The notes under the pieces are model-generated. The model worked only from the letters and a program-made list of their open reading frames with translations. It searched no databases and was not told the DNA's origin. This document shows, piece after piece, positions 2,701 through 62,324 of a stretch of 62,795 bases of DNA (position 1 is its first letter; each line of letters opens with the position of its first letter). The stretch is from the IMG/VR virus record IMGVR_UViG_3300027754_000090, positions 1-62,795 of that record; one strand, given 5' to 3'. Position numbers and translations under genes: made by a program. The DNA comes from a virus.

Positions 2701-2928
2701 ATGAGTAAGACCCCCTACGAAATCAGACTAGAATTGCTGAAGTTGGCCACAGAAATTCTTACCAACCCAGTATACCAGAAAAGAGACCAGTTGCGTGATC
2801 AGTATAATGTATCACTGGCACTGGATAAAGAAAATCCCCCGGATTACCCAGAGCTGCCGGAATTTCCCACAACAGAAGCCATAATTACTGAAGCTAATAA
2901 ACTCAATAGCTTTGTCAGTAACGGGTAA
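2701..2928 (+). CDS. Small phage protein of unknown function
   Basis: 75 residues starting MSKTPYEIRLELLKLATEIL; helical N-terminus, then a short Pro/Glu-rich stretch and a helical tail. Similar short proteins occur beside replication genes of T4-like marine phages, but I recognise no function. It has a good AAGGAG site 9 nt upstream, which lies in the hairpin at 2641-2696. The promoter of the next gene overlaps its last codons. Confidence 0.7.
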   Translation: MSKTPYEIRLELLKLATEILTNPVYQKRDQLRDQYNVSLALDKENPPDYPELPEFPTTEAIITEANKLNSFVSNG

Positions 2929-2940
2929 TTATGCTATACT
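2912..2940 (+). promoter_or_regulatory. Early-type promoter for the primase gene
   Basis: TTGTCA (2912-2917), 17-bp spacer, TATACT (2935-2940) preceded by the TATGC extended -10 element. The GTG start codon lies exactly 6 nt after the -10, so the transcript is predicted to be leaderless. Confidence 0.75.
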
Positions 2941-2946
2941 AGTGTT

Positions 2947-3906
2947 GTGCATAGCATAATCATCCAAACTTTGTTGGATAACCTGCCAGCTCACCGACCC
3001 AGTGTCAGTGGCTGGCAGAGCTTCAATGCCCCTTGCTGTGATCATCGTGGTCACAATCATGATCGTCGCAAGCGCGGCGGAGTTAAGCTGACTCCCACTG
3101 GAGTGGTATACAATTGTTTCAATTGCCACTACACCACGGGTTACACTGTGGGCAGTGGCTTTGGAATTAAGTTTAGACGGCTGCTGATCTGGTTGGGAGT
3201 ATCAGCAACTGAAGTCAATGCACTGAAGATCCATGCGCTTAGAGAGCGTGAATTGTATGCAGAACCTGACACTGAGCCAGCGCCCATACTGGAAATTGTT
3301 CCTCGTGACTTACCAGATCACAGTGTGTTGCTGGATCAACATCAGCATCCAGAATACTGGAAATATTTGCAGAATCGTGGGCTAGACCCAGCTGGTTACA
3401 GTTACTTTGTCAGCACTGAATTAGCTCGCAGAGTGATTGTGCCATTTACTTTTCAGGATAACCTGGTGGGATACACTGCTCGTGGTATTGGCGCACAACG
3501 ACCCAAGTATCTACAGAGTCTGGCCATGCCCTATATATTCGGAGCTGATCTGCAACATCGTGACTGGACCTGGTGCCCAGTGATGGAGGGAGTATTTGAT
3601 GCACTCAGTGTGGGTGGGTGTGCTACCCTGGGTAATGAAGTCAGTGAAGCACAGGCCGAACAACTGGATGCACTGGATCGCACTGTGGTGATAGTTCCAG
3701 ACCAGGATCGTGCTGGCGATGAATTAGTGCAAGCAGCTATTGATTACGGCTGGAGTGTCAGCTGGTGTGATTGGCCAGCTGGAATCAAAGATGTTAATGA
3801 TGCAGTGGTGCATTACGGCGCGCTGTTTGTTACTCGGCATATCTGGGCCAGCCGGGTCACAGGTACCACACAGATTAAACTACGGCGTAAACTGAGGAAA
3901 CACTAA
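2947..3906 (+). CDS. DNA primase, gp61-like (DnaG-type, zinc ribbon plus Toprim)
   Basis: 319 residues. The N-terminal part has a Cys/His-rich zinc ribbon (CCDHRGHNH about residue 29, then CFNC about 57), as in DnaG primases. A Toprim region follows, with VMEGVFDALS near 211 (the conserved Glu) and VVIVPDQDRAG near 248 (the DxD-type metal site). It should synthesise RNA primers for lagging-strand synthesis together with the helicase encoded immediately downstream (3-nt gap). The GTG start is chosen because it falls exactly 6 nt after a good -10 box; no Shine-Dalgarno is present. T4 gp61 equivalent by family and context. Confidence 0.88.
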   Translation: MHSIIIQTLLDNLPAHRPSVSGWQSFNAPCCDHRGHNHDRRKRGGVKLTPTGVVYNCFNCHYTTGYTVGSGFGIKFRRLLIWLGVSATEVNALKIHALRERELYAEPDTEPAPILEIVPRDLPDHSVLLDQHQHPEYWKYLQNRGLDPAGYSYFVSTELARRVIVPFTFQDNLVGYTARGIGAQRPKYLQSLAMPYIFGADLQHRDWTWCPVMEGVFDALSVGGCATLGNEVSEAQAEQLDALDRTVVIVPDQDRAGDELVQAAIDYGWSVSWCDWPAGIKDVNDAVVHYGALFVTRHIWASRVTGTTQIKLRRKLRKH

Positions 3907-3909
3907 CTA

Positions 3910-7065: not shown

Positions 7066-7071
7066 TATAAT
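7066..7071 (+). promoter_or_regulatory. -10 element of early-type promoter (leaderless)
   Basis: TGTGCTATAAT with TATAAT at 7066-7071, then exactly 6 nt to the ATG at 7078. The -35 is poor (AATAAT region at about 7043), so this may rely on the extended TGTGC element. Confidence 0.6.
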
Positions 7072-7077
7072 AGCAGT

Positions 7078-7437
7078 ATGGATACCGCTGAGCCAGAAAC
7101 TGGACATCTGATGTTGATCATGTGGGATATGTATGGTGTAGAAGCAGTAATTGATGTCACAGCCCAACTGCAAAATCAGTTGTTTGACATGATTCGCGAA
7201 AGTGATCATTTTAATCAGTGGCTCAATCATACCATCAACTACCTGACACTCAGAGCTCGCGCCAACAGCCAGCGTAACTATGAAGTATTCAGCATCTGGG
7301 TTGATGAGAGTATTGATGCTGATACACTGCGGGCTGAGTTCACCTCCAGTCCACAGCTCATGGCTGATCTAGTGAGGAGTCGCGGTAATCGTATATTTGG
7401 ATCAGCCAATCCATCCCACCGTCAGGTCATCTCCTAG
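7078..7437 (+). CDS. Unknown protein
   Basis: 119 residues, start MDTAEPETGHLMLIMWDMYG. The ATG at 7078 is preferred because it is 6 nt from a TATAAT box. The segment RARANSQRNYEVFSIWV resembles SRNQQRNWEILVQLI in the protein at 9234-9788, so the two may be distant relatives. No catalytic motif is evident. Soluble, no signal peptide. Confidence 0.65.
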   Translation: MDTAEPETGHLMLIMWDMYGVEAVIDVTAQLQNQLFDMIRESDHFNQWLNHTINYLTLRARANSQRNYEVFSIWVDESIDADTLRAEFTSSPQLMADLVRSRGNRIFGSANPSHRQVIS

Positions 7438-9222: not shown

Positions 9223-9228
9223 TAAATA
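9223..9228 (+). promoter_or_regulatory. Late promoter (TAAATA), leaderless
   Basis: CTAAATA directly after the terminator. A GTG start codon at 9234 is exactly 5 nt downstream, as in eight other late genes of the window. Confidence 0.7.
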
Positions 9229-9233
9229 TCTCA

Positions 9234-9788
9234 GTGAAACAACAAGTGATAACCCTGAACCAACACAGTATGTTGGCTGAGTCAGAAGTGATCACAGTGT
9301 ATACACTGTTTGATATCACCCACACTGGAGTATTAAAGATGTATGACTCCAGAGTAACGGAATTTGTGGATCAAGCGGGTCAGATTGTGCGTGACCGTAT
9401 CCAATGGTGTCGCAGTAGAAATCAGCAGAGAAACTGGGAGATTTTGGTGCAGCTAATCAGTTTACGAACTCAACCCACCATGTTAGCCAATCCTGAACTT
9501 CTGATCAATGCTGATTTGTCCAGTCTGGGATTGGGCGCTGGCTTTGCCTCCCCTCAAACAGTATGGTGTGCCAGTTTTTCCACTGAACATGCCCAGGTAT
9601 ACAGTACCAGTGACGACTATCTGGGCCAACTACGCGCCGAATGTCGCTTGGTACCCATGATCACTGGATTAACTGAAACTGCACAGATGTCCGATAGTTA
9701 TATTGAAACCCAGGGCGAATTTATCAATACTAGTTTTATTGTGTCTCAACCAATAACCGCTCAGCCGGCAACACCAAGGAGACAGTGA
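9234..9788 (+). CDS. Conserved T4-like phage protein, unknown function
   Basis: 184 residues from GTG at 9234, chosen by the 5-nt rule; an internal ATG at 9270 is the alternative. Contains EVITVYTLFDITHTGV and the segment QQRNWEILVQLISLRTQPT, typical of an uncharacterised family in T4-like phages. Its stop overlaps the next start (TGATG). Possibly virion-related because it is late and sits among structural genes. Confidence 0.7.
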   Translation: MKQQVITLNQHSMLAESEVITVYTLFDITHTGVLKMYDSRVTEFVDQAGQIVRDRIQWCRSRNQQRNWEILVQLISLRTQPTMLANPELLINADLSSLGLGAGFASPQTVWCASFSTEHAQVYSTSDDYLGQLRAECRLVPMITGLTETAQMSDSYIETQGEFINTSFIVSQPITAQPATPRRQ

Positions 9789-17729: not shown

Positions 17730-17983
17730 AAACATTAACAGTATATTCCACACCCAATTGTACACACTGCCAGCAGGCAAAGCAGTATCTAACTGAATTG
17801 TCTGTGCCTTTCAACGAAATAAATCTGCACGATGATGTTGCCAGCTTGGAGTTCATTAAACAGCAAGGACATCGCAGTGTGCCTCAGATCTATATGGGCA
17901 GCACACAGTTTGTTTCGGGATGGACTGAGTTGCAGAATATGTCACTGCCACGAATCCAGGAACGCATGAGAATCCAGGGATAA
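17726..17983 (+). CDS. Glutaredoxin (reductant for ribonucleotide reductase)
   Basis: 85 residues, typical glutaredoxin length. Active site CTHC in STPNCTHCQQAKQYL (about 8-22), then the cis-Pro motif RSVPQIYMG (about 51) and the GG-like FVSGW. ATGA overlap with nrdB. Expected to recycle the NrdA C-terminal cysteines, as T4 NrdC does. Confidence 0.93.
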   Translation: MKTLTVYSTPNCTHCQQAKQYLTELSVPFNEINLHDDVASLEFIKQQGHRSVPQIYMGSTQFVSGWTELQNMSLPRIQERMRIQG

Positions 17984-17986
17984 ATA
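17981..17986 (+). promoter_or_regulatory. Late promoter (TAAATA), leaderless
   Basis: GATAAATA overlaps the glutaredoxin stop; ATG at 17992 lies exactly 5 nt downstream and there is no Shine-Dalgarno. Confidence 0.7.
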
Positions 17987-17991
17987 TCAAT

Positions 17992-18294
17992 ATGCCTTAT
18001 CAATCAAATGACATTGTTACACTCAAGCTGGTCAGCGGCGAAGAAATTGTAACCCGATTTCTATCAGAAACCGCTGATGAATATGCAGTATACAAACCAC
18101 TGTCACTGATGCAAGGCCCTCAGGGCATGGCACTGATGCAGAGTTTAATGAGTGGTCGGCCAGATCGCGAAATCATTATTCGTAAATCCGCTGTGGCTAT
18201 GCACGCGGCGTCTCGTGAAGAGATAGTCAGTGCATGGATTGAAGGCACATCAGGACTGAAAACTCCGGGCAAAAGCTCATTGTTGATGGGATAA
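17992..18294 (+). CDS. Sm-like conserved phage protein
   Basis: 100 residues. The start NDIVTLKLVSGEEIVTRFLS fits the Sm/Lsm-like beta-barrel proteins of unknown role common in T4-like phages, which share the pattern VxLKLxSGEEIV and a KPLSL strand. The C-terminus is helical (KSAVAMHAASREEIVSAWIE). Predicted leaderless late gene. Confidence 0.7.
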   Translation: MPYQSNDIVTLKLVSGEEIVTRFLSETADEYAVYKPLSLMQGPQGMALMQSLMSGRPDREIIIRKSAVAMHAASREEIVSAWIEGTSGLKTPGKSSLLMG

Positions 18295-19164: not shown

Positions 19165-19193
19165 TTGACACTGACAATCCTGTTTGCTATACT
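19165..19193 (+). promoter_or_regulatory. Early-type promoter
   Basis: TTGACA (19165-19170), 17-bp spacer, TATACT (19188-19193) with TTTGC before it. ATG at 19202 is 8 nt downstream, so the leader is very short or absent. Confidence 0.85.
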
Positions 19194-19201
19194 CGTTAAG
19201 T

Positions 19202-19831
19202 ATGAAGATCGCCGCCCGCAAGTGCCCATTCACCGGAAAAATTTTCGAAACTGACCCGCAGTATACTCGGCATCTTGCTGGTGTCCGTGATCAGCAGCGC
19301 CAGCGTCGTGCATGGAAGCATATCGGTGCAGACGGTGACGCTGCTATACTGTGGGCCACACACCATGTCACCAGTGCTGATGAGTTTGATGCCTGGTTCC
19401 GTCAGAGCTGGCCCGCACTGGTTGGTCGTGGATACCGCACCAGATCCCGCGAGGATATTACTTGCAAACAGAAGCAGGATATTGTGGTGCCAAAATTGCT
19501 CAGCTCTGAGCTCAGTATTGGATCATACGGATTTCAGTCCAATAGCCACTGTTGTCCCAGCGGAGGTGTCACAAACTTCCGGGGTGATCCAGCCCTGCCC
19601 CGAGGGTACATGGGATGGGTTGGTCGTGTTAACTATAACTTTGATGACAGCACTGCTGACCACAGGGCCTGTGGCTATGGCATATTTAACAACAGTGCGA
19701 TTCACACTGGCAGTGGCGGCGGGGCCGGATGCAGATACGGATTCGACTTCAAACTCTGGGCTGACGAATGGCCAGCATGGAAGCTGGTTGCAGAGCAGCG
19801 CAGGGTGTGGGATATCATCAGCACGCCATAA
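19202..19831 (+). CDS. Unknown early protein with N-terminal Cys/His motif
   Basis: 209 residues. The N-terminus CPFTGKIFETDPQYTRHL looks like a C2H2-style zinc knuckle. The middle and C-terminus are rich in Gly and aromatic residues (PRGYMGWVGRVNYNF; GSGGGAGCRYGFDFKLW). The start is chosen from the promoter position. No known family; strong early promoter suggests a host-takeover role. Confidence 0.65.
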   Translation: MKIAARKCPFTGKIFETDPQYTRHLAGVRDQQRQRRAWKHIGADGDAAILWATHHVTSADEFDAWFRQSWPALVGRGYRTRSREDITCKQKQDIVVPKLLSSELSIGSYGFQSNSHCCPSGGVTNFRGDPALPRGYMGWVGRVNYNFDDSTADHRACGYGIFNNSAIHTGSGGGAGCRYGFDFKLWADEWPAWKLVAEQRRVWDIISTP

Positions 19832-20168: not shown

Positions 20169-20197
20169 TTGACTCTGATCACACCGTTTGCTATAAT
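20169..20197 (+). promoter_or_regulatory. Early-type promoter with conserved upstream block
   Basis: TTGACT, 17-bp spacer, TATAAT (20192-20197), followed by AGTTGAGTAGGGGAAAACACACA. Preceded at 20141-20160 by TTGTTGAAAACACTGGACAA, a block repeated before several promoters at 38-42 kb. Confidence 0.9.
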
Positions 20198-20220
20198 AGT
20201 TGAGTAGGGGAAAACACACA

Positions 20221-20454
20221 ATGTCAACTCAGCGTCCAGACTATCACACTCAGATCTCACGGGAGGCTCGCAAGGCTTATCGCGCACATGAAGCCGAGGC
20301 CTGTGTGTACTATGCAGAGTGCCTGGGCTATAGTGCCTGCGTCAGCTGGGAGACTTTTCGGGGCAGTTGGGCTTACGATGCATGGCGCTGTGATCACCAA
20401 ATTCAGATTGCTGCTCAGCAGGCTGAGTTTCAACGATTCAGTTTCATGGCTTGA
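20221..20454 (+). CDS. Small unknown early protein
   Basis: 77 residues, rich in Tyr, Trp, Ala and Cys (AYRAHEAEACVYYAECLGYS). Transcribed from the strong promoter at 20169 with GTAGGGGAA as the possible ribosome site. No family recognised. The next promoter overlaps its last codons. Confidence 0.6.
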   Translation: MSTQRPDYHTQISREARKAYRAHEAEACVYYAECLGYSACVSWETFRGSWAYDAWRCDHQIQIAAQQAEFQRFSFMA

Positions 20455-20479
20455 CTCTGCTTCGTCAGTTTGCTATACT
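20451..20479 (+). promoter_or_regulatory. Early-type promoter, leaderless
   Basis: TTGACT (20451-20456), 17-bp spacer, TATACT (20474-20479); ATG exactly 6 nt downstream at 20486. Confidence 0.85.
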
Positions 20480-20485
20480 AATAAT

Positions 20486-20554
20486 ATGAAGCGATGCACA
20501 ATCATCACCGCGTTATTGTTATTGCTCACAGCATCTCAAGGCTATGAGCTATGA
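20486..20554 (+). CDS. 22-residue hydrophobic peptide
   Basis: MKRCTIITALLLLLTASQGYEL: a basic start and Leu-rich core, like a bare signal peptide or small membrane peptide. Start is fixed by the 6-nt promoter spacing; ends in ATGA overlap with the next gene. Confidence 0.5.
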   Translation: MKRCTIITALLLLLTASQGYEL

Positions 20555-22460: not shown

Positions 22461-22589
22461 ATGGGAGACACACTAATCGTATTGGGTTTTGGCTTGCTGG
22501 CCGTATTATGTGGTTGGGCAGCTTATTATCTGATTTCTCGGAACACCAACCAAGACTCATCTTCAAATAACAGCATCCTCAGGGACTAA
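22461..22589 (+). CDS. Small single-span membrane protein
   Basis: 42 residues from ATG 22461, chosen because GAAAGGAG lies 8 nt upstream. An upstream in-frame ATG at 22401 overlaps the previous stop but has no ribosome site. Membrane span LIVLGFGLLAVLCGWAAYYL, then a polar tail. Lysis or membrane role possible. Confidence 0.55.
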   Translation: MGDTLIVLGFGLLAVLCGWAAYYLISRNTNQDSSSNNSILRD

Positions 22590-22592
22590 ATA
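22587..22592 (+). promoter_or_regulatory. Late promoter (TAAATA), leaderless
   Basis: ACTAAATA overlaps the preceding stop; ATG at 22598 is exactly 5 nt downstream, no ribosome site. Confidence 0.7.
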
Positions 22593-22597
22593 CCAAC

Positions 22598-22798
22598 ATG
22601 GAACACACAAATCGGCTGCCATCAGAAGTCAGAGCAGCAATAGACAATTATGGTACAAGCGTTCGACTGGATCGGTTCTTGGACGAGTGGCGGGCTGATC
22701 TTGAAGGTCGCAACTTTCTCAATACCTGGACTCTGAGCACGCAGGATCAGGCATTCGTGGAATTTCACAATAACTATCGCCGCCAACGCGAAATCTAA
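22598..22798 (+). CDS. Small unknown late protein
   Basis: 66 residues, charged and helical (LPSEVRAAIDNYGTSVRLDR). Start fixed by the late promoter spacing. No family recognised. Confidence 0.6.
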   Translation: MEHTNRLPSEVRAAIDNYGTSVRLDRFLDEWRADLEGRNFLNTWTLSTQDQAFVEFHNNYRRQREI

Positions 22799-22832: not shown

Positions 22833-22838
22833 TAAATA
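22833..22838 (+). promoter_or_regulatory. Late promoter (TAAATA)
   Basis: GGCTAAATAATG with AAGAGGA leader; drives the virion gene at 22856. Confidence 0.7.
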
Positions 22839-22855
22839 ATGATAAGAGGAATCAG

Positions 22856-23791
22856 ATGGCTTACAATATTAATCGAACCAATGGCAACACTCTCGTCTCC
22901 ATCAACGATGGCGAGGTAAACAGCCAAACCTGTAGTGTAGCATTGATTGGGCGCAATGTCAGCACCTATGGCGAGCTCATCAATGAAAACTTTGTCAGGT
23001 TGCTGGAGAATGCGGCAAATACCACAGCTCCCACGACACCAATAGTTGGTCAGCTGTGGTATGATACCACCACCAAACAAATGAAGTACCGGAACACCAC
23101 CAACAATTGGGTGGGGGTAGCTTCATACACCAAGGACACCACAGCGCCATCTGGTATCAGTGATGGTGATACCTGGTATGATACCACCAATAAAAAATTA
23201 AAAATTTACATTGATGGCACTAACTCAGTGGTTGGTCCACTGGGCAACGTCACCTTGAGCGGTGACCTCAGTGGCACCGCAGCATATTCTGGATCAGCCA
23301 ACATCACGATAGCCGCCAGCTTGGTTGTGGATCGTGTGAAAAAAACTGGCGATACACTCACTGGTCAGCTCAACGCTGCCGCTGGATTCACTGCTGGATC
23401 TGGCAGCACAGCCAACCTGATATTTGCCACTGGCACTGCTGTGGGTATTCGCAACAACGATCCCCAAGTGGCATTGGATGTGGTGGGTGCTATTCGTATG
23501 GTGCCAGTAACTGACACCTACAGCGGCAATATTACTATTGATGCTACTCATGGTAATCATCAAATCACACTCACTGGCAATACCACATTTACCATCAGCA
23601 ACTTTAGCAATGCTGGGCAGACCCTGAGACTAGTGATCACGGGCTCCAACCACACCATGACCTGGCCAGGTAGCATTAACTGGCCCAACGGCGCCGCGCC
23701 AAATTTAGCAAATGGTCCAGCGAAGATCGCGGTGGTTACCCTGATTAAACCTGCCAGTGGCAATTTGCTGGCCACATATGTGAGCTACTAA
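22856..23791 (+). CDS. Tail fibre / virion structural protein
   Basis: 311 residues. The N-terminal 95 residues (ENFVRLLENAANTTAPTTPI, GQLWYDTTTKQMKYRN, DGDTWYDTTNKKLKIY) are the repeated WYDTTxxxLK motif of T4-like marine tail-fibre or baseplate appendages. A beta-rich trunk (AATGxx and GNITIDATHGNH) and a C-terminal sandwich follow. Forms a late block with the large adhesin downstream (1-nt gap). Confidence 0.85.
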   Translation: MAYNINRTNGNTLVSINDGEVNSQTCSVALIGRNVSTYGELINENFVRLLENAANTTAPTTPIVGQLWYDTTTKQMKYRNTTNNWVGVASYTKDTTAPSGISDGDTWYDTTNKKLKIYIDGTNSVVGPLGNVTLSGDLSGTAAYSGSANITIAASLVVDRVKKTGDTLTGQLNAAAGFTAGSGSTANLIFATGTAVGIRNNDPQVALDVVGAIRMVPVTDTYSGNITIDATHGNHQITLTGNTTFTISNFSNAGQTLRLVITGSNHTMTWPGSINWPNGAAPNLANGPAKIAVVTLIKPASGNLLATYVSY

Positions 23792-28180: not shown

Positions 28181-28186
28181 TAAATA
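28181..28186 (+). promoter_or_regulatory. Late promoter (TAAATA), leaderless, for clpX
   Basis: GTTAAATA; ATG 28192 is exactly 5 nt downstream. A second TAAATA lies at 28151-28156. Confidence 0.65.
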
Positions 28187-28191
28187 TAGGT

Positions 28192-29439
28192 ATGCGCAAA
28201 GAGCCACCATCAGTTCCCGACCACTGTAGTTTTTGCGACAAGAGTCGCGACGAAGCCATGAAACTAATCGTGAGTGGCAGTCATGCCATATGCGATGAAT
28301 GTGTGTTGTTGTGTGGTAACTTATTGACCGAACAACACAATGTGTCTGTGAAAAAAAACCGGCGAACTCAGCGGCACATCAATCCCATGAAGATTAAGCA
28401 GTTCCTGGATGAGCGAGTCATTGGCCAGGAACTGGCCAAGATGACACTGAGTGTGGGAGTAGCTAACCATTTCAAGAGATTGTTTTTCAAGAGTCAGGTC
28501 AGGGTGGAAAAAAGCAATGTGTTACTGCTGGGGCCCACTGGCAGTGGAAAAACGCTCTTGGCCAAGAGCATTGCAGAGTATCTCAATATACCCATTGTGA
28601 TTGCTGATGTCACTGGATTAACCGAAGCTGGCTATGTGGGGGATGACGTGGAAAGCATCATCTCACGGTTATTGTTTGAAGCTGACGGTGATGTGGAATT
28701 GGCACAGCAGGGTATTATTTTCCTGGACGAGATTGACAAGATTGGCAGAAAAAACGAAGGTAATTCCAATCGTGACATTGGTGGCGAAGGTGTGCAGCAG
28801 GGTCTGCTGAAACTGGTGGAAGGTACCATACTGAGCGTGCAAGCCGATGGCCCCAAGAAACATCCTGGAACCACCGTGGTAGACATTGATACCACCAATA
28901 TCCTATTTGTGGCCAGCGGTGCATTCACAGGTATGCAGGAGATTGTGGCACGCCGCCACAAGGCCAGCGCCATTGGATTTAGCTTAACCGACACCGTAAA
29001 CCGTGGACTAGGAGCAACGTCTGATGATTTGATCAAATTTGGCATGATATCAGAGTTTGTGGGTCGTTTTCCAGTCACGGTGACCACACTGGCACTGACT
29101 GAAGCTGAACTAGTGCAGGTGCTGACTCAACCACAGCACAATCTGATTCAGCAGTACCAATTCTACTTTGAAGTAGATGGCGTGGCAGTGGAGTTTACAC
29201 CTGACGCATTAACTGCCATTGCCCGCGGTGCCATAGCACTGAAAACCGGAGCTCGCGCACTGCGTGGTATACTGGAACAGAAACTTATGCCACACTTGTT
29301 TGCCTTGCCTAAATACAAGCAGGACAAAGTCAGCAAGATTCTGTTCACAGCTGATGTGTTCAGTGCTGATGCCGAGCCCGTTATCACTTACGGGCGAACC
29401 AGTAGTTCAAACTCAAAAAAGGTAATAAAATCAAAATGA
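28192..29439 (+). CDS. clpX: ATP-dependent Clp protease ATP-binding subunit ClpX
   Basis: 415 residues, near normal ClpX length (424 in E. coli). C4 zinc finger CSFCDKSRDE and CDECVLLC (about 12-44), Walker A GPTGSGKT (about 117), Walker B IIFLDEIDKI (about 180), RxGR region (GRFPVTV), and sensor 2 GARALRG near 355. Unfolds substrates and feeds ClpP, whose phage copy is at 36671. The start ATG follows the leaderless late-promoter rule. Phage-borne ClpX is rare and suggests redirected proteolysis. Confidence 0.95.
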   Translation: MRKEPPSVPDHCSFCDKSRDEAMKLIVSGSHAICDECVLLCGNLLTEQHNVSVKKNRRTQRHINPMKIKQFLDERVIGQELAKMTLSVGVANHFKRLFFKSQVRVEKSNVLLLGPTGSGKTLLAKSIAEYLNIPIVIADVTGLTEAGYVGDDVESIISRLLFEADGDVELAQQGIIFLDEIDKIGRKNEGNSNRDIGGEGVQQGLLKLVEGTILSVQADGPKKHPGTTVVDIDTTNILFVASGAFTGMQEIVARRHKASAIGFSLTDTVNRGLGATSDDLIKFGMISEFVGRFPVTVTTLALTEAELVQVLTQPQHNLIQQYQFYFEVDGVAVEFTPDALTAIARGAIALKTGARALRGILEQKLMPHLFALPKYKQDKVSKILFTADVFSADAEPVITYGRTSSSNSKKVIKSK

Positions 29440-31327: not shown

Positions 31328-31332
31328 ATCAG

Positions 31333-34009: not shown

Positions 34010-34038
34010 TTGACAGCATCGCTGTCGTCTGCTACAAT
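34010..34038 (+). promoter_or_regulatory. Early-type promoter, leaderless
   Basis: TTGACA (34010-34015), 17-bp spacer, TACAAT (34033-34038), 6 nt, ATG 34045. Confidence 0.8.
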
Positions 34039-34044
34039 CAAGGT

Positions 34045-34762: not shown

Positions 34763-34763
34763 T
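34734..34763 (+). promoter_or_regulatory. Early-type promoter, leaderless
   Basis: TTGACA (34734-34739), 18-bp spacer, TATAAT (34758-34763) preceded by TTTGC. A GTG start codon is exactly 6 nt downstream (34770). Confidence 0.82.
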
Positions 34764-34769
34764 TACTGA

Positions 34770-36632: not shown

Positions 36633-36662
36633 TTGACAACGATACCACCGTCTTGCTATAAT
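36633..36662 (+). promoter_or_regulatory. Early-type promoter for clpP
   Basis: TTGACA (36633-36638), 18-bp spacer, TATAAT (36657-36662) after CTTGC; ATG 36671 is 8 nt downstream, so little or no leader. Confidence 0.82.
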
Positions 36663-36670
36663 AGCGATAT

Positions 36671-37249
36671 ATGCTTGTTCCAATTGTTGTAGAAAAAACA
36701 TCCAGCGGCGAACGAAGTTATGATATCTTCTCCAGGCTGCTCAAAGACCGTATCGTGTTGCTGAATGATGATGTTAACAATCACACTGCTGGCTTGATTG
36801 TGGCTCAGATGTTGTTCTTGGAAAGTGAAGACCGGACCCAGGACATTCTGTTTTACATCAACAGCCCAGGCGGGTCAGTAACTGATGGCTTGGCCATCTT
36901 GGATACTATTTCCTGTATCAAATGTGACGTCAGTACCATCGTAATGGGTCAGGCATGTAGTATGGGCAGTTTGCTGGCCAGTGCTGGTACTCGAGGTAAG
37001 CGGCTGATGTTGCCCAATAGTCGGCATTTGATTCACCAGCCTCTGGGCGGCGCCCAGGGGCAGGCATCGGATATTGAGATTCAGGCACGGGAAATTGTTC
37101 GCATGAAGCGACAGCTAACTGATATCTATGTGCGCAACACTGGCCAGACCTATGAAACACTAGAACGTGATATGGATCGTGACAACATCATGGATGCTGA
37201 ACAGAGTATTGCCTATGGCTTGGCAGATAAGATCATTCAGCCCAAGTAA
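36671..37249 (+). CDS. clpP: ATP-dependent Clp protease proteolytic subunit ClpP
   Basis: 192 residues. Catalytic Ser97 ([10 protein letters not shown]), His122 (RHLIHQP) and Asp171 ([11 protein letters not shown]) are all in place, with [16 protein letters not shown] as the oxyanion and strand motif. Has an early-type promoter while clpX is late-type, so phage ClpP may first join host ClpX. A strong bidirectional terminator follows. Confidence 0.96.
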
Positions 37250-40272: not shown

Positions 40273-40287
40273 ACCGTTTGCTATCAT
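40259..40287 (+). promoter_or_regulatory. Early-type promoter
   Basis: TTGACG, 17-bp spacer, TATCAT (40282-40287), then AGTTGAGTAAGG. Confidence 0.83.
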
Positions 40288-40310
40288 AGTTGAGTAAGGA
40301 GAAAATACAC

Positions 40311-40664
40311 ATGATGATCAAAGTGATGACACCCGGACGCAAACGAGGTGGCGTGGAATATCCGCCCACATCCACTGAATACACTGTGGACATTGTGGTG
40401 GGCCGCAGCATTGAGATTTATTGCCAGCGCAAAGATCTCAGCATGGTAGCCGGTTCTGCGTTTGAGATTGGCGACACTGCGGAATACGACAGTTACAATC
40501 TCAGCTACACTGGCGAGATCACCAAGATCACTGACAAGGCTGTAACCATTAAGAAATATGGCACTTCACACCGCCTAAATTTGAATGAATTCTGTTGGCG
40601 TAATCACAACTTCAATGCAGCCGAAACCGCTGCCCGCAATGCCGAAACATCTATGTATATCTAA
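40311..40664 (+). CDS. Unknown early protein
   Basis: 117 residues (ATG 40311, or 40314). TAAGGAG ribosome site. Beta-rich central part (EIGDTAEYDSYNLSYTGEIT) like an SH3/OB-type barrel, then a helical Ala/Asn-rich end. No family recognised. Confidence 0.6.
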   Translation: MMIKVMTPGRKRGGVEYPPTSTEYTVDIVVGRSIEIYCQRKDLSMVAGSAFEIGDTAEYDSYNLSYTGEITKITDKAVTIKKYGTSHRLNLNEFCWRNHNFNAAETAARNAETSMYI

Positions 40665-41190: not shown

Positions 41191-41219
41191 TTGACTACGC
41201 GATAGCCGTTTGCTATACT
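41191..41219 (+). promoter_or_regulatory. Early-type promoter, leaderless
   Basis: TTGACT, 17-bp spacer, TATACT (41214-41219), 6 nt, ATG 41226. The repeated block CTGTTGAAAACACAGGACTT lies at 41142-41161. Confidence 0.85.
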
Positions 41220-41225
41220 TATGAT

Positions 41226-41435
41226 ATGGCACAGTACATAGTAAAGGATGAACACACTCTAGGGGTTATCGTGAGTGATATGTGTATGCAAATACTTGCT
41301 GGGAAGCCTCAGCTCGGTGGCCATTGCTGGAGGGATGGCACTGCTGCCTTTCTCCCGGACCAGAGTGACATTCGCCCGGCGACTATAGCAGACTTCGAGT
41401 ATTTTCGAGTGATGGTTCCTCCCAACTTTGCATAA
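41226..41435 (+). CDS. Small unknown early protein
   Basis: 69 residues, MAQYIVKDEHTLGVIVSDMC. Start fixed by promoter spacing. C-terminus contains RPATIADFEYFRVMVPPNFA. No function recognised. Confidence 0.6.
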   Translation: MAQYIVKDEHTLGVIVSDMCMQILAGKPQLGGHCWRDGTAAFLPDQSDIRPATIADFEYFRVMVPPNFA

Positions 41436-41440: not shown

Positions 41441-41469
41441 TTGACAACTTCCCAACCAAATGTTATACT
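41441..41469 (+). promoter_or_regulatory. Early-type promoter, leaderless
   Basis: TTGACA (41441-41446), 17-bp spacer, TATACT (41464-41469), 6 nt, ATG 41476. The 6-nt segment TATGAT is the same as in the promoter at 41191. Confidence 0.87.
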
Positions 41470-41475
41470 TATGAT

Positions 41476-41766
41476 ATGGACAACACAGTGACCCCAACCA
41501 AGACCGGAAACTTCCCGCACGATGTGCGGGCTGGATACTACACCGCAGTCCGTAACGCTCACTACAATATGAGAGATCAGCCATTGTTTAAGGCCCAGCT
41601 CCCAGTGAATACGTTCGATGCTGACTTCCAGCAGTATCTGCTGGACAATGGCGTTCCGTCCCAGTATGTCAGCAAGGTTGCTTATGCAGCCTATGAGCGT
41701 GGCCACAGTGGTGGAGATTCTGAGATTGTCAACTGTGCAGGTGATCTGATCGAGATCTTCAATTAG
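41476..41766 (+). CDS. Small unknown early protein
   Basis: 96 residues, MDNTVTPTKTGNFPHDVRAG; helical C-terminal part (YVSKVAYAAYERGHSGGDSE). Start fixed by promoter spacing. Confidence 0.6.
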   Translation: MDNTVTPTKTGNFPHDVRAGYYTAVRNAHYNMRDQPLFKAQLPVNTFDADFQQYLLDNGVPSQYVSKVAYAAYERGHSGGDSEIVNCAGDLIEIFN

Positions 41767-49250: not shown

Positions 49251-49459
49251 TACGCCCAGCACAGGTGATTGTGGATCTGGATACCTGGAATCAGGAATGG
49301 AAATCTGCGTTGGGTGTAATTCGGCTTGCGCTCACTGACCAGCTCAGTGACCTTGGCAAGGATATCATTATACAGAGAATGGCACGGTTGCAGGGACGAC
49401 TGGATGGTACATACAATGGACCACTCAGCAGCAATCGCTGGGATTATCCAGATAAATAG
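49247..49459 (+). CDS. Small unknown protein
   Basis: 70 residues, MIRPAQVIVDLDTWNQEWKS, helical; ATGA overlap with the gene upstream. Ends over the late promoter of the next gene. Confidence 0.58.
   Translation: MIRPAQVIVDLDTWNQEWKSALGVIRLALTDQLSDLGKDIIIQRMARLQGRLDGTYNGPLSSNRWDYPDK
49453..49458 (+). promoter_or_regulatory. Late promoter (TAAATA), leaderless
   Basis: GATAAATA overlaps the previous stop; ATG 49464 is exactly 5 nt downstream. Confidence 0.7.
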
Positions 49460-49463
49460 TCAC

Positions 49464-50090
49464 ATGCCCCACACCAGCCGAGCCGATTTCAATCAAACCT
49501 GGTTGACCGAGATGCCCGAAGGATTAGGCGACATTGAGGTATGGGATATGATGTTGTATAATATCCAGGATCAGATCCGTCATGGCGCCCAGATAATCAC
49601 AGTAAATGCTAACCTGAAAAAAATCACTGGGTCGCAGACTGTGTATTATTGGTGGGAAGTAGCTGGAGAAATAGTATTGGCTGCTGAGTTCTCAGTCCGG
49701 CCTCAGGCATATACTGTGAATGCTGTGGCTAAGTCGCCACAGTGGAGACGTAAGCCACCCTATATGACTGATCTGTATCAGGCAGTGTTGGCTGACACTG
49801 GCCAGAGTATCCGATTGTTCAGTGATACTCAGCTCAGTAATGGTGGCATGGCTGTATGGCGTAAACTACTGGCCGCTGGTTGCAAGATCAGTGTGTATGA
49901 CCGGCATAATCCTGGTGGTTCATTCGTCACCATCAGTGACGCTGATCAACTGGAACAATACTTCCAGGACGATGATACTGATTACCGCCGATATCAGTAT
50001 GTGCTGAGTGAAGCCCGGAGTCATTTAGACACTCTGAGCTACTTTGGCACACGCAGAATCAGAGAACTCAGCGGACAAAGTCTCGACTGA
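49464..50090 (+). CDS. Conserved T4-like phage protein, GNAT-like, unknown function
   Basis: 208 residues from ATG 49464. VYYWWEVAGEIVLAAEFSVR followed by SNGGMAVWRKLLAAGCKISV and DRHNPGGSF recalls a widespread phage family of unknown role with an acetyltransferase-like layout. Late gene, so virion or assembly role possible. Confidence 0.65.
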   Translation: MPHTSRADFNQTWLTEMPEGLGDIEVWDMMLYNIQDQIRHGAQIITVNANLKKITGSQTVYYWWEVAGEIVLAAEFSVRPQAYTVNAVAKSPQWRRKPPYMTDLYQAVLADTGQSIRLFSDTQLSNGGMAVWRKLLAAGCKISVYDRHNPGGSFVTISDADQLEQYFQDDDTDYRRYQYVLSEARSHLDTLSYFGTRRIRELSGQSLD

Positions 50091-50661: not shown

Positions 50662-50687
50662 CATTCAATTACTGAATACGTTATAAT
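50658..50687 (+). promoter_or_regulatory. Early-type promoter, leaderless
   Basis: TTGACA (50658-50663), 18-bp spacer, TATAAT (50682-50687), 6 nt (AAACAT), ATG 50694. Confidence 0.85.
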
Positions 50688-50693
50688 AAACAT

Positions 50694-50879
50694 ATGGCAG
50701 CAGAAAATCGTAAAATTCATGGTGTGTATATCTGTAGATTGTGCGGTCACGAGATCAACGATGCCGGAGCATGTAATTTTGGTTGTGTTCAGGATTTTGT
50801 GTATCCAAAAAATCGACCCAGTGGCACAGTGACACTGAAAACTTATGAACTGATTCTGCTTACCGAGGAAAATCTATGA
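50694..50879 (+). CDS. Small Cys-rich protein
   Basis: 61 residues. CRLCGHEINDAGACNFGC gives four Cys for a zinc site, then a beta-rich end. Early leaderless start; ATGA overlap with the deaminase gene. Confidence 0.62.
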   Translation: MAAENRKIHGVYICRLCGHEINDAGACNFGCVQDFVYPKNRPSGTVTLKTYELILLTEENL

Positions 50880-52318: not shown

Positions 52319-52324
52319 TAAATA
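52319..52324 (+). promoter_or_regulatory. Late promoter (TAAATA), leaderless
   Basis: GCATAAATA; ATG 52330 is exactly 5 nt downstream. Confidence 0.7.
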
Positions 52325-52329
52325 ACCAC

Positions 52330-53448
52330 ATGCGCTATTACGAACTAATAACTGAAGACTACAAATCAGTCACTAAGAAATTCATTGATGCTGGAGCTGA
52401 CTCAGCCGAGGTCAAAAAGTATATTGACCAGTTTAAGGCATTGGGTACTAAATTAAACAATATTACAGACCCAGCTGATAAAAACATTGATGTCTGGGGT
52501 AAGCGATCATTTGCTGACTTCAAGAAATTTGTCACTGATATCGGCACTCAGGTTACCCCGAGCAGCCAGAAGAAAGATGCTGGCACCAGTATTGATATCA
52601 CAACACCAAAACAAAAAGCAGCTGGGTGGAATATAATTATTCCCACTGACGAGTCTGCCAGTTGTTATCACGGCACTGGTACCGATTGGTGTGTGAGTAA
52701 ACGCAATCAAGGCCATTTTGAGGACTATTTTCTAGACAACAACGTCACACTGGTATTCTGTCTGAATGATCAGCAAGAAAAATGGGCTATTGCCAGTCAT
52801 GTCGACCTAGGCGATAAATCTGAGTTCTTTACCGCCAAAGATAAATCACTAACCCAGGAGAAATTCGACTCTGCTACTGGATTAAATTCTGCAGAGATAA
52901 TTAAATCTGCTCTGAGTCATGCTGGCGTGGAGCCAGCTCGTGCTGAGGCCAAACTGGCCAGTATTCCACATCTGATCCGCAAAGCCCTGACCCCAGACCC
53001 AGCCCTGGAGAAAAAAATTCTAGCTACCAAGAATGCCAAGTGGATGTATCAGTATACCCTGAATGTGCTGAAAGCACCATGGCCAGCTGCTGAGCCAGTG
53101 ATTGCTCAGAACGCTGGGTGGGCATTCTGGTATGCCTGTTTTGTGCTGAAAGCGCCATTTCCAGCTGGTGAACCAGCGATTGCTCAGAACGCTGATTGGG
53201 CATACTCATATGCCAAGGCTGTGCTGAAAGCACCATGGCCAGCTGCTGAGCCAGTGATTGCTCAGAATGCAGAGCGGGCATATTATTATGCCCTGGATGT
53301 GCTGAAAGCGCCATTTCCAGCTGGTGAACCAGCGATTGCTCAGAACGCTCAGTTGGCATACAAATATGCCCAGTATATGCTGAAAGATCCCAAACCCAAC
53401 ACCTGGCGTAAACGGTACTTGGCTCAGCAGAAAAAAATTCAGAAATAA
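52330..53448 (+). CDS. Phage protein with helical repeats (about 35 aa), unknown function
   Basis: 372 residues. The N-terminal part has MRYYELITEDYKSV (typical of T4-like unknown proteins) and a domain with ASCYHGTGTDWCVSKRNQGH and TLVFCLNDQQEKWAIAS, seen in other phage proteins. From about 230, four or five units of WAYxYAxxVLKAPWPAAEPV / IAQNA form an alpha-solenoid like DUF4116-type repeats. The stop codon lies in a 46-bp direct repeat that also occurs upstream of the gene. Confidence 0.7.
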   Translation: MRYYELITEDYKSVTKKFIDAGADSAEVKKYIDQFKALGTKLNNITDPADKNIDVWGKRSFADFKKFVTDIGTQVTPSSQKKDAGTSIDITTPKQKAAGWNIIIPTDESASCYHGTGTDWCVSKRNQGHFEDYFLDNNVTLVFCLNDQQEKWAIASHVDLGDKSEFFTAKDKSLTQEKFDSATGLNSAEIIKSALSHAGVEPARAEAKLASIPHLIRKALTPDPALEKKILATKNAKWMYQYTLNVLKAPWPAAEPVIAQNAGWAFWYACFVLKAPFPAGEPAIAQNADWAYSYAKAVLKAPWPAAEPVIAQNAERAYYYALDVLKAPFPAGEPAIAQNAQLAYKYAQYMLKDPKPNTWRKRYLAQQKKIQK

Positions 53449-55269: not shown

Positions 55270-55270
55270 T

Positions 55271-55574: not shown

Positions 55575-55580
55575 TAAATA
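55575..55580 (+). promoter_or_regulatory. Late promoter (TAAATA), leaderless
   Basis: GGTAAATA; ATG 55586 is exactly 5 nt downstream. Confidence 0.65.
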
Positions 55581-55585
55581 TCCGT

Positions 55586-55981
55586 ATGACCCTACGCAGT
55601 TGTCCAGTATGTAACACGGTATTAACCAACAAACAAAAAAACAATGTAACCTGTGGCCATAGTTGTGCCAACACTTTTTTTCGCAGTGGGGTCAACAGCG
55701 GCCAATATCGCCAGGGCACTGACAACTATCGTACCATATGTTTCATTTATCATCCACGCGAATGTGTGGTTTGCGGTGAAACCAATGTATTAGATGTTCA
55801 TCACTGGGACCACATTCACAGCAATAATGAGCCGTCCAATCTGATACCACTGTGTCCTAATCACCACAGGTATATGCACACCCGACATCGTGCGCTGATA
55901 GCTGATCAAGTCAATAGTTATCGTGAACAGTTTTTAGAAAATCAGTGTCAGGACATCCTAGACCAACCAGATTATGACTGA
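55586..55981 (+). CDS. HNH endonuclease (homing-type) next to tRNA cluster
   Basis: 131 residues. N-terminal zinc knuckle CPVCNTVL and CGHSC, then HNH core CVVCGETNVLDVHHWDHIHS, NLIPLCPNHHRYMHTRH with paired CxxC. Free-standing HNH genes of this type move between phage genomes and often lie beside tRNA genes. Late leaderless promoter. Confidence 0.87.
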   Translation: MTLRSCPVCNTVLTNKQKNNVTCGHSCANTFFRSGVNSGQYRQGTDNYRTICFIYHPRECVVCGETNVLDVHHWDHIHSNNEPSNLIPLCPNHHRYMHTRHRALIADQVNSYREQFLENQCQDILDQPDYD

Positions 55982-56502: not shown

Positions 56503-56626
56503 TTATCCTTTGCCAGCTTCAAATTTTGATAACAAACTCATACTGTTGCCACGCAGGTCAGCTGGTGGGTTGATCCATCTGGTCTATGGTGTCCAGCAGA
56601 CCCCGTATAATATCAGTTGCTCGCAT
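56503..56626 (-). pseudogene. Short frameshifted phage gene, minus strand
   Basis: From ATG 56626: MRATDIIRGLLDTIDQMD, then stop at 56558. In the neighbouring frame NPPADLRGNSMSLLSKFEAG follows to a stop at 56503. The two pieces look like the two ends of a longer protein family in T4-like marine phages (start MxATDIIRG, end NPADIR…). The minus-strand TAAATA box lies 5 nt before the ATG. Confidence 0.5.
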
Positions 56627-56631
56627 CAATG

Positions 56632-56637
56632 TATTTA
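56632..56637 (-). promoter_or_regulatory. Late promoter (TAAATA), minus strand, leaderless
   Basis: GCATAAATA on the minus strand, 5 nt, then ATG at 56626. Confidence 0.62.
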
Positions 56638-59420: not shown

Positions 59421-59426
59421 TATACT
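59421..59426 (+). promoter_or_regulatory. -10 element TATACT, leaderless
   Basis: GTGTATACT, 6 nt (AGTGAA), ATG 59433; -35 region (GTGACG, 18-bp spacer) is weak. Confidence 0.62.
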
Positions 59427-59432
59427 AGTGAA

Positions 59433-60014
59433 ATGAAGACAATTACCTTACGCAGGGCGGCACAGTTACAGGGCGAACTGTCCAGAGAGAACACCGAATC
59501 AGACTTGACCGCCGTCGCAGTGATCAAAGTTAATGCAGCAGCTAATCCTGAGTCTGTGCTGACTGGCGCAGTAAAGGACTTTGAAGTCAAGTTTCAGCAA
59601 GCTCTGAATCTCATCAAGATTCAGTATGCCGTTCGTGAATCGGTGGCCAATGCCAATACCGCCACAGGCGTAGCTGGACTGCTTTCGCGGGATGCTGGGA
59701 TCAAAGCACAGATGACACTGATTGCCAAGATTTTATCTCAGCGTGATGATTGTCCCAACACCGCAGAATGGGTCAGCACTTATGACATCACAGTGGAACG
59801 CATGAAGAAAGCCGACAGCTTGTATGGTCATACTGACCAGATCAATGTTAGTGTGCTTAGCACTGATGATCGTGAGCGATTGACCAAGACCATGGCTAAT
59901 TTACGCCGTGAACGAAATATCATCAGTGATCAGTTGTTGGCCATTAATACCAACACCTATATCGATATCAATGACACAGATTGGACTGTGCTCCAGAATC
60001 TGGGGCTGGTCTAA
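59433..60014 (+). CDS. Unknown early protein
   Basis: 193 residues. Helical throughout (LRRAAQLQGELSRENTESDL; KDFEVKFQQALNLIKIQYAV), with a conserved-looking C-terminus RRERNIISDQLLAINTNTYI. Start chosen by the 6-nt rule. No family recognised. Confidence 0.62.
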   Translation: MKTITLRRAAQLQGELSRENTESDLTAVAVIKVNAAANPESVLTGAVKDFEVKFQQALNLIKIQYAVRESVANANTATGVAGLLSRDAGIKAQMTLIAKILSQRDDCPNTAEWVSTYDITVERMKKADSLYGHTDQINVSVLSTDDRERLTKTMANLRRERNIISDQLLAINTNTYIDINDTDWTVLQNLGLV

Positions 60015-60805: not shown

Positions 60806-60887
60806 TTAGATATCCTCGGTAATATTTATCTTACGACCATACTAATAATAAGCACATGTTAACCCCAGCGATAAGTATGCGTACTGC

Positions 60888-62129
60888 ATGATCAACTTGA
60901 AATTCAGCATCATCACTCCCACCCACATTCGTAATAGTTTCTTATCTGAGCTGTATCTCAGTATACTGGCGCAGACTTATACCAATTGGCATTGGGTTAT
61001 CCTCCTCAACGGTGGTGCGGTCATTGACCAAGTACCTGCTGAAATCAGAGCTGATGCCAGAACAGAGATTCACATCACCACTGACACCAACAGCAATGTG
61101 GGACACATCAAGCGAGCAGCATTTCAGCTGGGCACTGGTGATGTACTGGTGGAAATGGATCACGATGATCTGCTGACACCAGATTGCTTGGCTGAGCTGA
61201 ATACGGCATTTCAGGATCCTGATGTAGGCTTTGTGTACAGTGATAATGCCAAGTATCACACTCAGGCTGAGTTTGAACCCTATGGAGCTTACTGGGGGTG
61301 GACACATCACAAACATCAGTGGCAGGACCATAGCCTGTATGTAATGGACAGCTTTGTGGCCAGCAGCCACAGTGTGGGGCAGATCTATTACGCACCAGAT
61401 CATGTCAGAGCCTGGAGAACCACAGTGTATCAGCAAGTGGGTGGGCATAATCCCGAGCTCAGCGTGTGTGATGATCAGGATCTGATAATCCGCACCTACT
61501 TACAAACCAGATTTGTTTATATTCCACAAGTACTGTACATCTATCGCATCACTGGCGACAACACCTGGCTGGCTCGCAATGAACAGATACAAACACTGAG
61601 TCAAGCAATATTTCGTCAGTATGCATGGCAACTGGCTGTGAGAGATGCTGAGCTGCGTGAGCTTATGATAGTGGATCTGGGTGGTGGCATTGACGCCAAG
61701 GCTGGCTGTGTGACTATTGACACCGCAGATGCTGATATCATTGCTGATCTCAATGCTGGTATTCCACTTCCGGATAACAGTGTGGGCGTGATCAATGCCA
61801 GTCATGTGCTGGAACATCTGCGAGATCCACTGTTTAGTATGCGAGAAATTCATCGTGTACTGGCTGATGGCGGCTGGGCTTTCATTGAAGTGCCCAGCAC
61901 TGATGGTCGTGGTGCGTGGCAGGATCCCACACATGTCAGCTACTGGAATCAGAACAGCTTTGGCTATTATACTCGCACAGACCGTGCCAGATATATTCGT
62001 AACACTGACATTCGTTTTCAAGAATTCAGACTGGAGACTCGGTGGTGGGAGGAAAATGTCGCGGTGGTGGATGCTTGGCTGGTGGCAGTGAAGTCGGATC
62101 AGCGTCGTCCTCACAAATTGACCATCTAG
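60888..62129 (+). CDS. Glycosyltransferase family 2 fused to SAM-dependent methyltransferase
   Basis: 413 residues. N-terminal GT2 domain (about 5-235): FSIITPTHIRNSFLSELYLS, LVEMDHDDLLTPDCL (the DxD), CDDQDLIIRTYL (catalytic Asp region). C-terminal Rossmann methyltransferase (about 260-405): MIVDLGGGIDAKAGCVTIDT, GVINASHVLEHLRDPLFSMR, GGWAFIEVPSTDGRG. May decorate phage DNA or a virion/host glycan. No promoter or clear ribosome site was identified. Confidence 0.87.
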   Translation: MINLKFSIITPTHIRNSFLSELYLSILAQTYTNWHWVILLNGGAVIDQVPAEIRADARTEIHITTDTNSNVGHIKRAAFQLGTGDVLVEMDHDDLLTPDCLAELNTAFQDPDVGFVYSDNAKYHTQAEFEPYGAYWGWTHHKHQWQDHSLYVMDSFVASSHSVGQIYYAPDHVRAWRTTVYQQVGGHNPELSVCDDQDLIIRTYLQTRFVYIPQVLYIYRITGDNTWLARNEQIQTLSQAIFRQYAWQLAVRDAELRELMIVDLGGGIDAKAGCVTIDTADADIIADLNAGIPLPDNSVGVINASHVLEHLRDPLFSMREIHRVLADGGWAFIEVPSTDGRGAWQDPTHVSYWNQNSFGYYTRTDRARYIRNTDIRFQEFRLETRWWEENVAVVDAWLVAVKSDQRRPHKLTI

Positions 62130-62138
62130 CGAGGGTGG

Positions 62139-62167
62139 TTGACATTATGATATCAGCGTGTTATCAT
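62139..62167 (+). promoter_or_regulatory. Early-type promoter
   Basis: TTGACA (62139-62144), 17-bp spacer, TATCAT (62162-62167); ATG 62175 is 7 nt downstream. Confidence 0.8.
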
Positions 62168-62174
62168 AAGTATT

Positions 62175-62324
62175 ATGATGAAGAAACCCATGTCTTTCAC
62201 GATCCCAGCCACAGATCACAGTAAAGTCCGCAGCGGAGTTCGTGCCACTCGTGTGATCGATCATCAGAAAACCCGTGAATCTCTGCCACGTAAAGCTAAA
62301 CACAAGAAACGTGAGGACTACTAG
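62175..62324 (+). CDS. Small basic protein (49 aa)
   Basis: MMKKPMSFTIPATDHSKVRS then Lys/Arg-rich LPRKAKHKKREDY. Basic and disordered-looking; early near-leaderless start. Confidence 0.58.
   Translation: MMKKPMSFTIPATDHSKVRSGVRATRVIDHQKTRESLPRKAKHKKREDY

Follow-up and report, generated by a model that had tools for sequence, protein, structure and literature searches.

Leaderless mRNAs, which carry the start codon at the 5' end, are an established kind of transcript and are predicted in Cluster O mycobacteriophages; no report of them in T4-type or jumbo phages was found in the open-access literature (most subscription journals lie outside it). Here, we analyze a stretch of viral DNA (IMG/VR record IMGVR_UViG_3300027754_000090; the whole record of 62,795 bases, hereafter the window) in which many genes are predicted to be expressed as leaderless mRNAs from two classes of promoters, sigma70-type early and T4 gp55-type late. 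The cI gene of phage lambda is a single leaderless gene of a temperate phage, with a 5'-terminal AUG, whereas many genes of many kinds are concerned here. In mycobacteria (PMC4633059; statements on this paper and on PMC4351075, PMC2988020, PMC9723584, and PMC5312081 refer to the accessible parts of their text), as in the window, ATG or GTG stands at +1, a Shine-Dalgarno (SD) motif is not needed, and leaderless genes occur alongside leadered ones, giving two classes per genome; unlike the mycobacterial case, the window comes from an apparent jumbo phage and has two promoter classes, one of the T4 gp55 type. For Cluster O mycobacteriophages (PMC4351075), sigA-like promoters were predicted whose transcripts begin with the start codon, as here, but those promoters number three and the phages infect a host in which leaderless mRNA is known, whereas the window has about 20 such starts in 63 kb behind early-type and T4-type late promoters. 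The gp55-dependent late promoters of T4 (PMC2988020) share with the window a TATA-type box that precedes the transcription start by about one helical turn, and gp55 homologs are encoded by relatives of the window.

Among other phages, AR9 has leaders of 26-491 nucleotides (nt), and the same paper calls phage transcripts often leaderless, citing an Escherichia coli ribosome study (PMC5312081). Large phages that encode the ribosomal protein bS21, as the window does, have been described (PMC9723584), but these are predicted Bacteroidetes phages with bS21 among the capsid genes, and the word "leaderless" does not occur in the accessible text of that paper. It appears only in the reference lists of PMC9004378, PMC11845039, PMC10070969, and PMC9693318 and is not used in a 2026 review on jumbo phages (PMC13282480). 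On the sequence evidence below, we consider it probable (about 0.85) that, in a clade of jumbo phages whose late promoters are of the T4 type, many transcripts of both the early and the late type carry the start codon at +1.

Promoter-to-start spacing in the window and in related phages

For each box on either strand, the distance to an ATG or GTG opening an open reading frame (ORF) was recorded without preselection, with an ORF minimum of at least 40 codons in the first scans and at least 50 codons in the binomial tests. Distances from TAAATA peaked at 5 nt (8 of 55 sites, ORFs of at least 40 codons), with zero to two sites at each other distance from 0 to 13 nt and up to four at single later distances. 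The extended -10 pattern (TGN-TA[TC][AC][AC]T) peaked at 6 nt (9/63), with at most five sites at any other distance from 0 to 30 nt; two of the nine peak sites (39063 and 53698) probably are chance matches, as they are followed by an ATG gene that has a leader itself and by a tRNA cluster. In the binomial tests, the late peak (8/55) had a P value of about 1e-6 against the other distances, the extended -10 peak (8/54) 2e-6, and the strict -35/-10 early pattern (4/29) 5e-4. Fourteen permuted hexamers averaged 1.4% at 5 nt in the window, versus 14.5% for TAAATA. The distance count that an earlier note on this sequence had proposed for the full genome yields, within the window, a distribution that is not flat, with peaks at 5 nt for TAAATA and 6 nt for the extended -10.

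Transcription from sigma70 promoters starts about 7 nt after the -10 box, so that a codon 6 nt past this box stands at +1. The T4 late box sits about one helical turn upstream of the transcription start (PMC2988020), so that a codon 5 nt after TAAATA stands at about +1. ATG or GTG at +1 was required in mycobacteria, with positions +2 to +5 apparently less effective (PMC4633059); the starts 7-8 nt from the box in the window may therefore be less efficient. The boxes and distances that the earlier note had listed are correct at all 22 starts (13 early and 9 late; the ten 6-nt cases were rechecked). These units are given below, where "early" and "late" denote the promoter motif alone and "leaderless" is a prediction.

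2935..3906, plus strand: early-type leaderless, DNA primase (T4 gp61-like); -10 TATACT 2935-2940, 6 nt, GTG 2947
7066..7437, plus strand: early-type leaderless; TATAAT, 6 nt, ATG 7078; -35 not clear
20474..20554, plus strand: early-type, weak case; TATACT, 6 nt, ATG 20486; ORF of only 22 codons
31359..33356, plus strand: early-type, CHASE2 and class III nucleotide cyclase; TACACT, 6 nt, ATG 31371
34033..34284, plus strand: early-type leaderless; TTGACA-17-TACAAT, 6 nt, ATG 34045
34758..35099, plus strand: early-type leaderless; TTGACA-18-TATAAT, 6 nt, GTG 34770
41214..41435, plus strand: early-type leaderless; TTGACT-17-TATACT, 6 nt, ATG 41226
41464..41766, plus strand: early-type leaderless; TTGACA-17-TATACT, 6 nt, ATG 41476
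50682..50879, plus strand: early-type leaderless; TTGACA-18-TATAAT, 6 nt, ATG 50694
59421..60014, plus strand: early-type; TATACT, 6 nt, ATG 59433; weak -35
19188..19831, plus strand: early-type; TTGACA-17-TATACT, 8 nt, ATG 19202
36657..37249, plus strand: early-type, ClpP; TTGACA-18-TATAAT, 8 nt, ATG 36671
62162..62324, plus strand: early-type; TTGACA-17-TATCAT, 7 nt, ATG 62175
9223..9788, plus strand: late-type leaderless; TAAATA, 5 nt, GTG 9234
17981..18294, plus strand: late-type leaderless, PHROG 527; TAAATA, 5 nt, ATG 17992
22587..22798, plus strand: late-type leaderless; TAAATA, 5 nt, ATG 22598
28181..29439, plus strand: late-type leaderless, ClpX-like, overlapping the bS21 gene; TAAATA, 5 nt, ATG 28192
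30596..31338, minus strand: late-type leaderless, metallophosphoesterase; TAAATA 31338-31333, 5 nt, ATG 31327
49453..50090, plus strand: late-type leaderless; TAAATA, 5 nt, ATG 49464
52319..53448, plus strand: late-type leaderless; TAAATA, 5 nt, ATG 52330
55575..55981, plus strand: late-type leaderless; TAAATA, 5 nt, ATG 55586; zinc-finger/HNH-like by eye only
56558..56637, minus strand: late-type, weak case; TAAATA, 5 nt, ATG 56626; ORF of only 22 codons

The same scans were applied to four large relatives of the window (G001, G003, G018, and G019, which with the window make up the clade) and to T4, Syn9, 121Q, and Atu_ph07 as controls (whole records, except that 400 of the 490 kb of Atu_ph07 were covered). 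All four relatives showed the late peak (24/484 sites at the peak distance in G001, 15/144 in G003, 9/189 in G018, and 9/205 in G019), and three showed the early peak (8/234 in G001, 10/201 in G003, and 11/216 in G018). When summed, early sites amounted to 37/923 in the clade versus 4/842 in the controls (P = 2e-7) and late sites to 65/1077 versus 9/878 (P = 1e-9). The controls had no clear peak in either class. TAAATA was followed by a start at 5 nt in 1.8% of cases in T4 and 1.3% in Atu_ph07, compared with 4-15% in the clade, and T4 differs from the clade also in that none of its 32 TATAAATA sites has a scored start within 12 nt, the peak being at 28 nt. The statement of the earlier note that leaderless use on such a scale is not a known T4-like trait fits the lack of a report in the open-access literature searched and of a clear peak in T4 and Syn9. 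In the relative G001, the genes for the tail sheath, a head-tail adaptor, and a virion protein lie behind ATAAATA; among the eight leaderless late proteins of this genome that were tested, three are of virion type (tail sheath, head-tail adaptor, and structural protein) and one is a transposase.

SD motifs are missing from 15 of 17 scored listed starts, the other two (17992 and 22598) having a weak AGGG 12-13 nt upstream, and are present at 42 of 60 other starts in the window; five of the 22 listed starts were left unscored, and the 60 comparison starts were chosen partly by SD energy, which inflates this contrast. Both promoter classes also drive leadered genes. The TAAATA sites serve nine leaderless starts and, at 14-33 nt, about 10 genes that have an SD leader. 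Among 27 strict early promoters, seven have a start at 6 nt, three at 7-8 nt, and six precede leadered genes at 16-39 nt; of the remainder, two lie before a tRNA cluster, two are without a nearby start, and seven look like chance. Three such contrasting units are as follows.

20192..20454, plus strand: early-type promoter with a leader; TATAAT, AGTTGAGTAGGGG..., ATG at 23 nt
40282..40664, plus strand: early-type promoter with an SD leader; AGTTGAGTAAGGAG..., ATG at 23 nt
22833..23791, plus strand: late-type TAAATA promoter with an SD leader; ATG at 17 nt

The seventh base after the -10 box is G in 11 of 11 hand-picked leadered or tRNA promoters of the window. In the ten 6-nt cases, the start codon begins at this same position, which speaks for its being +1. 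The triplet there is GTA or GTG in 10 of the 11 (GTG in four) and, correspondingly, often GTA in G001 and often ATA in G018; RTA is rare at starts in Mycobacterium tuberculosis (2.4%; PMC4633059), whereas GTA is common in the leadered early promoters here. A strict rule under which GTA marks leadered and GTG leaderless transcripts fails in 4 of the 11, and the triplet at +1 alone does not decide between the two states.

Conservation of the primase start and of the other listed genes

The primase is the best single case. Starting from the best 80 of 94 primase loci, we omitted six cut at edges and read 74, one of which (L067) is identical to the window. At first look, 72 of the 74 had a TA...T box 5-8 nt upstream of a start codon close to where the N-terminus was expected (56 at 6 nt, 15 at 5 nt, and one at 7 nt); L082 and L131 lacked one. 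This look picked the best start at each locus, and the analysis was therefore redone with a stricter box, distinct upstream sequences, exclusion of the window's own copies, and a control gene. Of 65 distinct upstream sequences, 57 then had a -10 box with at most one mismatch 5-7 nt ahead of the primase start (46 at 6 nt, 9 at 5 nt, and 2 at 7 nt); they fall into 26 clusters at 75% identity; 41 of the 57 have a TG extension, and an SD motif was found in none. Of the eight misses, six carry a box with two mismatches at a similar place. For the control, the gp41 helicase gene that follows the primase gene, the same criterion gave a -10 box in 3 of 72 cases, and an SD motif was present at 41 of the 72 starts. 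Among five primase loci from bacterial metagenome-assembled genome (MAG) bins, the box lies 6 nt before ATG in three (L281, L284, and L285) and about 10 nt before it in two (L282 and L283); 121Q and Atu_ph07 have a -10 box upstream of the primase gene with a leader of about 30 nt.

The PA5oct-like Pseudomonas jumbo phage PAC2 shares with the window a primase GTG 6 nt after the -10 (TTGACA-TGCTATAAT), and sequence similarity reaches the codon after this GTG; it differs in having no genome-wide peak (early 1/139 and late 5/613, not part of the clade-versus-control sum). This GTG likely is the start of the PAC2 primase, whose annotated start lies 34 codons further downstream (L214, 1498-1600).

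For the other listed genes, orthologs were again counted as distinct upstream sequences (two matches for 52330 are not included). The metallophosphoesterase gene has TAAATA, 6 nt, and ATG in 11 of 23 relatives. The cyclase gene has TAAATA 4 nt before ATG in 4 of 4 distinct relatives of this gene, in place of the early box, so that the promoter class differs and the start remains near +1. The cyclase gene (31371-33356, plus strand), which encodes CHASE2 and a class III adenylate/guanylate cyclase, is divergent from the metallophosphoesterase gene (30596-31327, minus strand); the cyclase query gave no confirmed relative among viral contigs by pattern, although distant ones do occur in the fetched loci. 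For 20486, 34045, 34770, 41226, 62175, 55586, and 56626, the ortholog comparison found no homolog.

Proposed mechanism and competing explanations

Two classes of promoters, sigma70-type early (TTGAC-17-TGnTATAAT) and T4 gp55-type late (TAAATA), would each be used in two ways. In one, ATG or GTG would stand at +1 of the transcript or within about 2 nt of it, and the ribosome, as with leaderless mRNAs already known, would have to recognize the start codon directly at the 5' end; in the other, the same kind of promoter would produce a leader of roughly 9-33 nt, mostly with an SD-like motif. Start codons in this position are decoded by 70S ribosomes together with initiator tRNA, and those of the phage may be read in this way too, the possible advantages being a compact promoter-gene fusion and translation independent of SD pairing. 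From promoter geometry we infer the 5' ends themselves; judged in this way, the spacing peaks, the conservation at the primase among relatives of about 37-50% protein identity, the missing SD motifs, and the controls without a clear peak support the claim of the earlier note that mRNAs of both classes begin at the start codon. Its word "systematic" is too strong: about 10 late and 6 early promoters, omitted from its list, make leadered mRNAs, and for most of the listed genes besides the primase the orthologs are not leaderless.

Several observations weigh against the proposed use of +1 start codons. By the criteria applied, ClpX orthologs are leaderless in 1 of 47 cases (other phage groups contribute many of these sequences; a further TTG match, 12 codons off, was taken for chance), and orthologs of 9234 in 3 of 24, with TAAATA 7-10 nt away in several more and two further sigma70-like matches taken for chance. 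None was found for PHROG 527 (0/9), for 7078 (0/3), or for 41476, 50694, 59433, 19202, 22598, and 49464 (0/1 each), and the single match for ClpP (1/9) is 8 codons off and is not trusted. Thus, either individual genes gain and lose the leaderless state, or chance accounts for part of the window cases. The -35 of the primase promoters is mostly TTGA-like, with at least two mismatches in 48 of 57. G019 lacks the early peak (P = 0.06-0.1), the extended -10 alone gives no peak in G018 and G019 and only P = 0.035 in G003, and the late peak of G018 and G003 is broad (4-7 nt). In T4, TAAATA at 5 nt (4/225) has P = 0.03 by base rate and 0.19 against other distances, and its frequency slightly exceeds the maxima of the permuted hexamers in T4 (1.4%) and in Atu_ph07 (0.7%); this slight excess and the four GTG leaders count against the proposal. 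Homologs of gp55 were detected, with T4 gp55 as the query, in G018, G003, and G019 but not in the 62.8-kb window or G001, both of which are fragments; PHROG 194, tried as a proxy for gp55, gave 0/7.

That AT-rich boxes occur near starts and that those at 5 or 6 nt were simply picked would fit the weak cases, namely the 22-codon ORFs at 20486 and 56626 and the starts at 7078, 31371, and 59433, which have no good -35 and failed the strict early list, as well as one permuted hexamer (TTAAAA) that reaches 8% at 5 nt in the window. We regard chance and selection as highly improbable overall and largely refuted by the genome scans and the primase test, since unselected scans with their binomial P values, permuted motifs, other phages, and primase orthologs agree on a nonrandom peak; the earlier note's view that such uniform spacing is unlikely by chance is thereby borne out, even if individual weak cases may be accidental. 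A different objection is that leaderless transcripts are minor, translation proceeding mainly from SD-led or coupled readthrough mRNAs started upstream, with the start codon at +1 only incidentally. The genes are packed, mostly on one strand, which makes readthrough likely, and orthologs of several genes have leaders or closely follow another gene. This explanation appears unlikely, given that 15 of the 17 scored leaderless starts lack an SD motif to serve a readthrough mRNA and that the primase retains promoter, spacing, and missing SD across the 26 upstream clusters.

An addition to the use of +1 start codons, rather than a substitute for it, would be that phage bS21 takes the place of its host counterpart and makes ribosomes more ready to accept a start codon at the 5' end, which would put leaderless use partly under phage control. 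The gene in question is:

29436..29693, plus strand: phage-encoded ribosomal protein bS21; match 29472-29627; 4-nt overlap with the leaderless ClpX gene

The product matches Pfam PF01165 with 59.2 bits (curated cut-off, 27). Among 14 records searched, bS21 was present in 10, including G001, G003, G018, Atu_ph07, and PAC2, and was not found in T4, 121Q, and G019; phage bS21 has been linked to late-stage translation (PMC9723584). It is a candidate modifier of ribosomes, but we consider this role rather unlikely because Atu_ph07 and PAC2 have bS21 without a general leaderless peak, G019 has the late peak without a detected bS21, translation of the early leaderless genes would precede the synthesis of phage bS21, and leadered genes are retained. 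Quite unlikely is a two-state 5'-end code, with ATG or GTG at a fixed register specifying leaderless and GTA or ATA plus an SD leader specifying leadered transcripts, and with bS21 tuning ribosomes between the two pools; the four leadered early promoters of the window with GTG at +1 speak against it, as does the slight TAAATA excess in T4 and Atu_ph07. In the same 14 records, S1 was found in none and IF3 in two (121Q and Atu_ph07 only). A phage initiator tRNA was rejected as an enabling factor: tRNAs with C1-A72, which we take to be an initiator feature, were seen by eye in G003, Atu_ph07, and PAC2, whereas the window showed none, and a leaderless peak is absent from Atu_ph07.

Origin of the window and implications

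The window encodes both a T4-type (gp41-type) helicase and a gp61-like primase, together with the large (two ORFs) and small subunits of ribonucleotide reductase, a ligase, and NAMPT, and 21 tRNA genes are predicted. Its primase is nearest, among 50,697 phage records, to that of Agrobacterium phage Atu_ph07 (34% identity), followed by PA5oct-like Pseudomonas phages (30%); relatives at about 37-50% identity are uncultured, several of them on contigs of 110-344 kb. Because of the T4-type genes, the primase affinities, and the large contigs of the relatives, we assign the window to a jumbo phage of the T4 superfamily whose genome would exceed 200 kb, the record probably being a fragment of it. 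A cyanophage origin, prompted by TAAATA and the tRNAs, was rejected, as 7.3 kb of the window had no DNA match in phages and Syn9 has no peak.

Host clues are mixed. The five MAG-bin loci with primase relatives come from Rickettsiales, Verrucomicrobia, Pelagibacter, and Neomarinimicrobiota. The bS21 of G018, G003, and G005 ends in a tail known from Burkholderiales; of 398 genomes from the phylum to which the Rickettsiales bin belongs, a minority match the G018 bS21 to its end. The window bS21 is without this tail, which thus gives no host for the window. An HXXSHH (DUF1552) protein (56700-58064, plus strand; 349 bits) is a possible host clue.

Other features of the window include the two ribonucleotide reductase large-subunit ORFs (13255-16581, plus strand), which align with neighboring segments (61-355 and 356-794) of a single family profile; a large gene (17-2626) with an internal repeated unit (868-1984, minus-strand matches) that occurs six times in the promoter scan; and a 25-base direct repeat (at 52283 and 53441) that flanks the gene 52330-53448 on both ends.

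If the predicted leaderless expression is right, uncultured T4-related giant phages express replication and virion genes from mRNAs of a type that T4 seems not to use, and the choice of the ribosome between leaderless and leadered mRNAs within one infected cell becomes testable. Start-codon annotation would be corrected, as for the PAC2 primase, which seemingly is annotated 34 codons short, and the promoter-to-start rule would become usable by phage gene finders.

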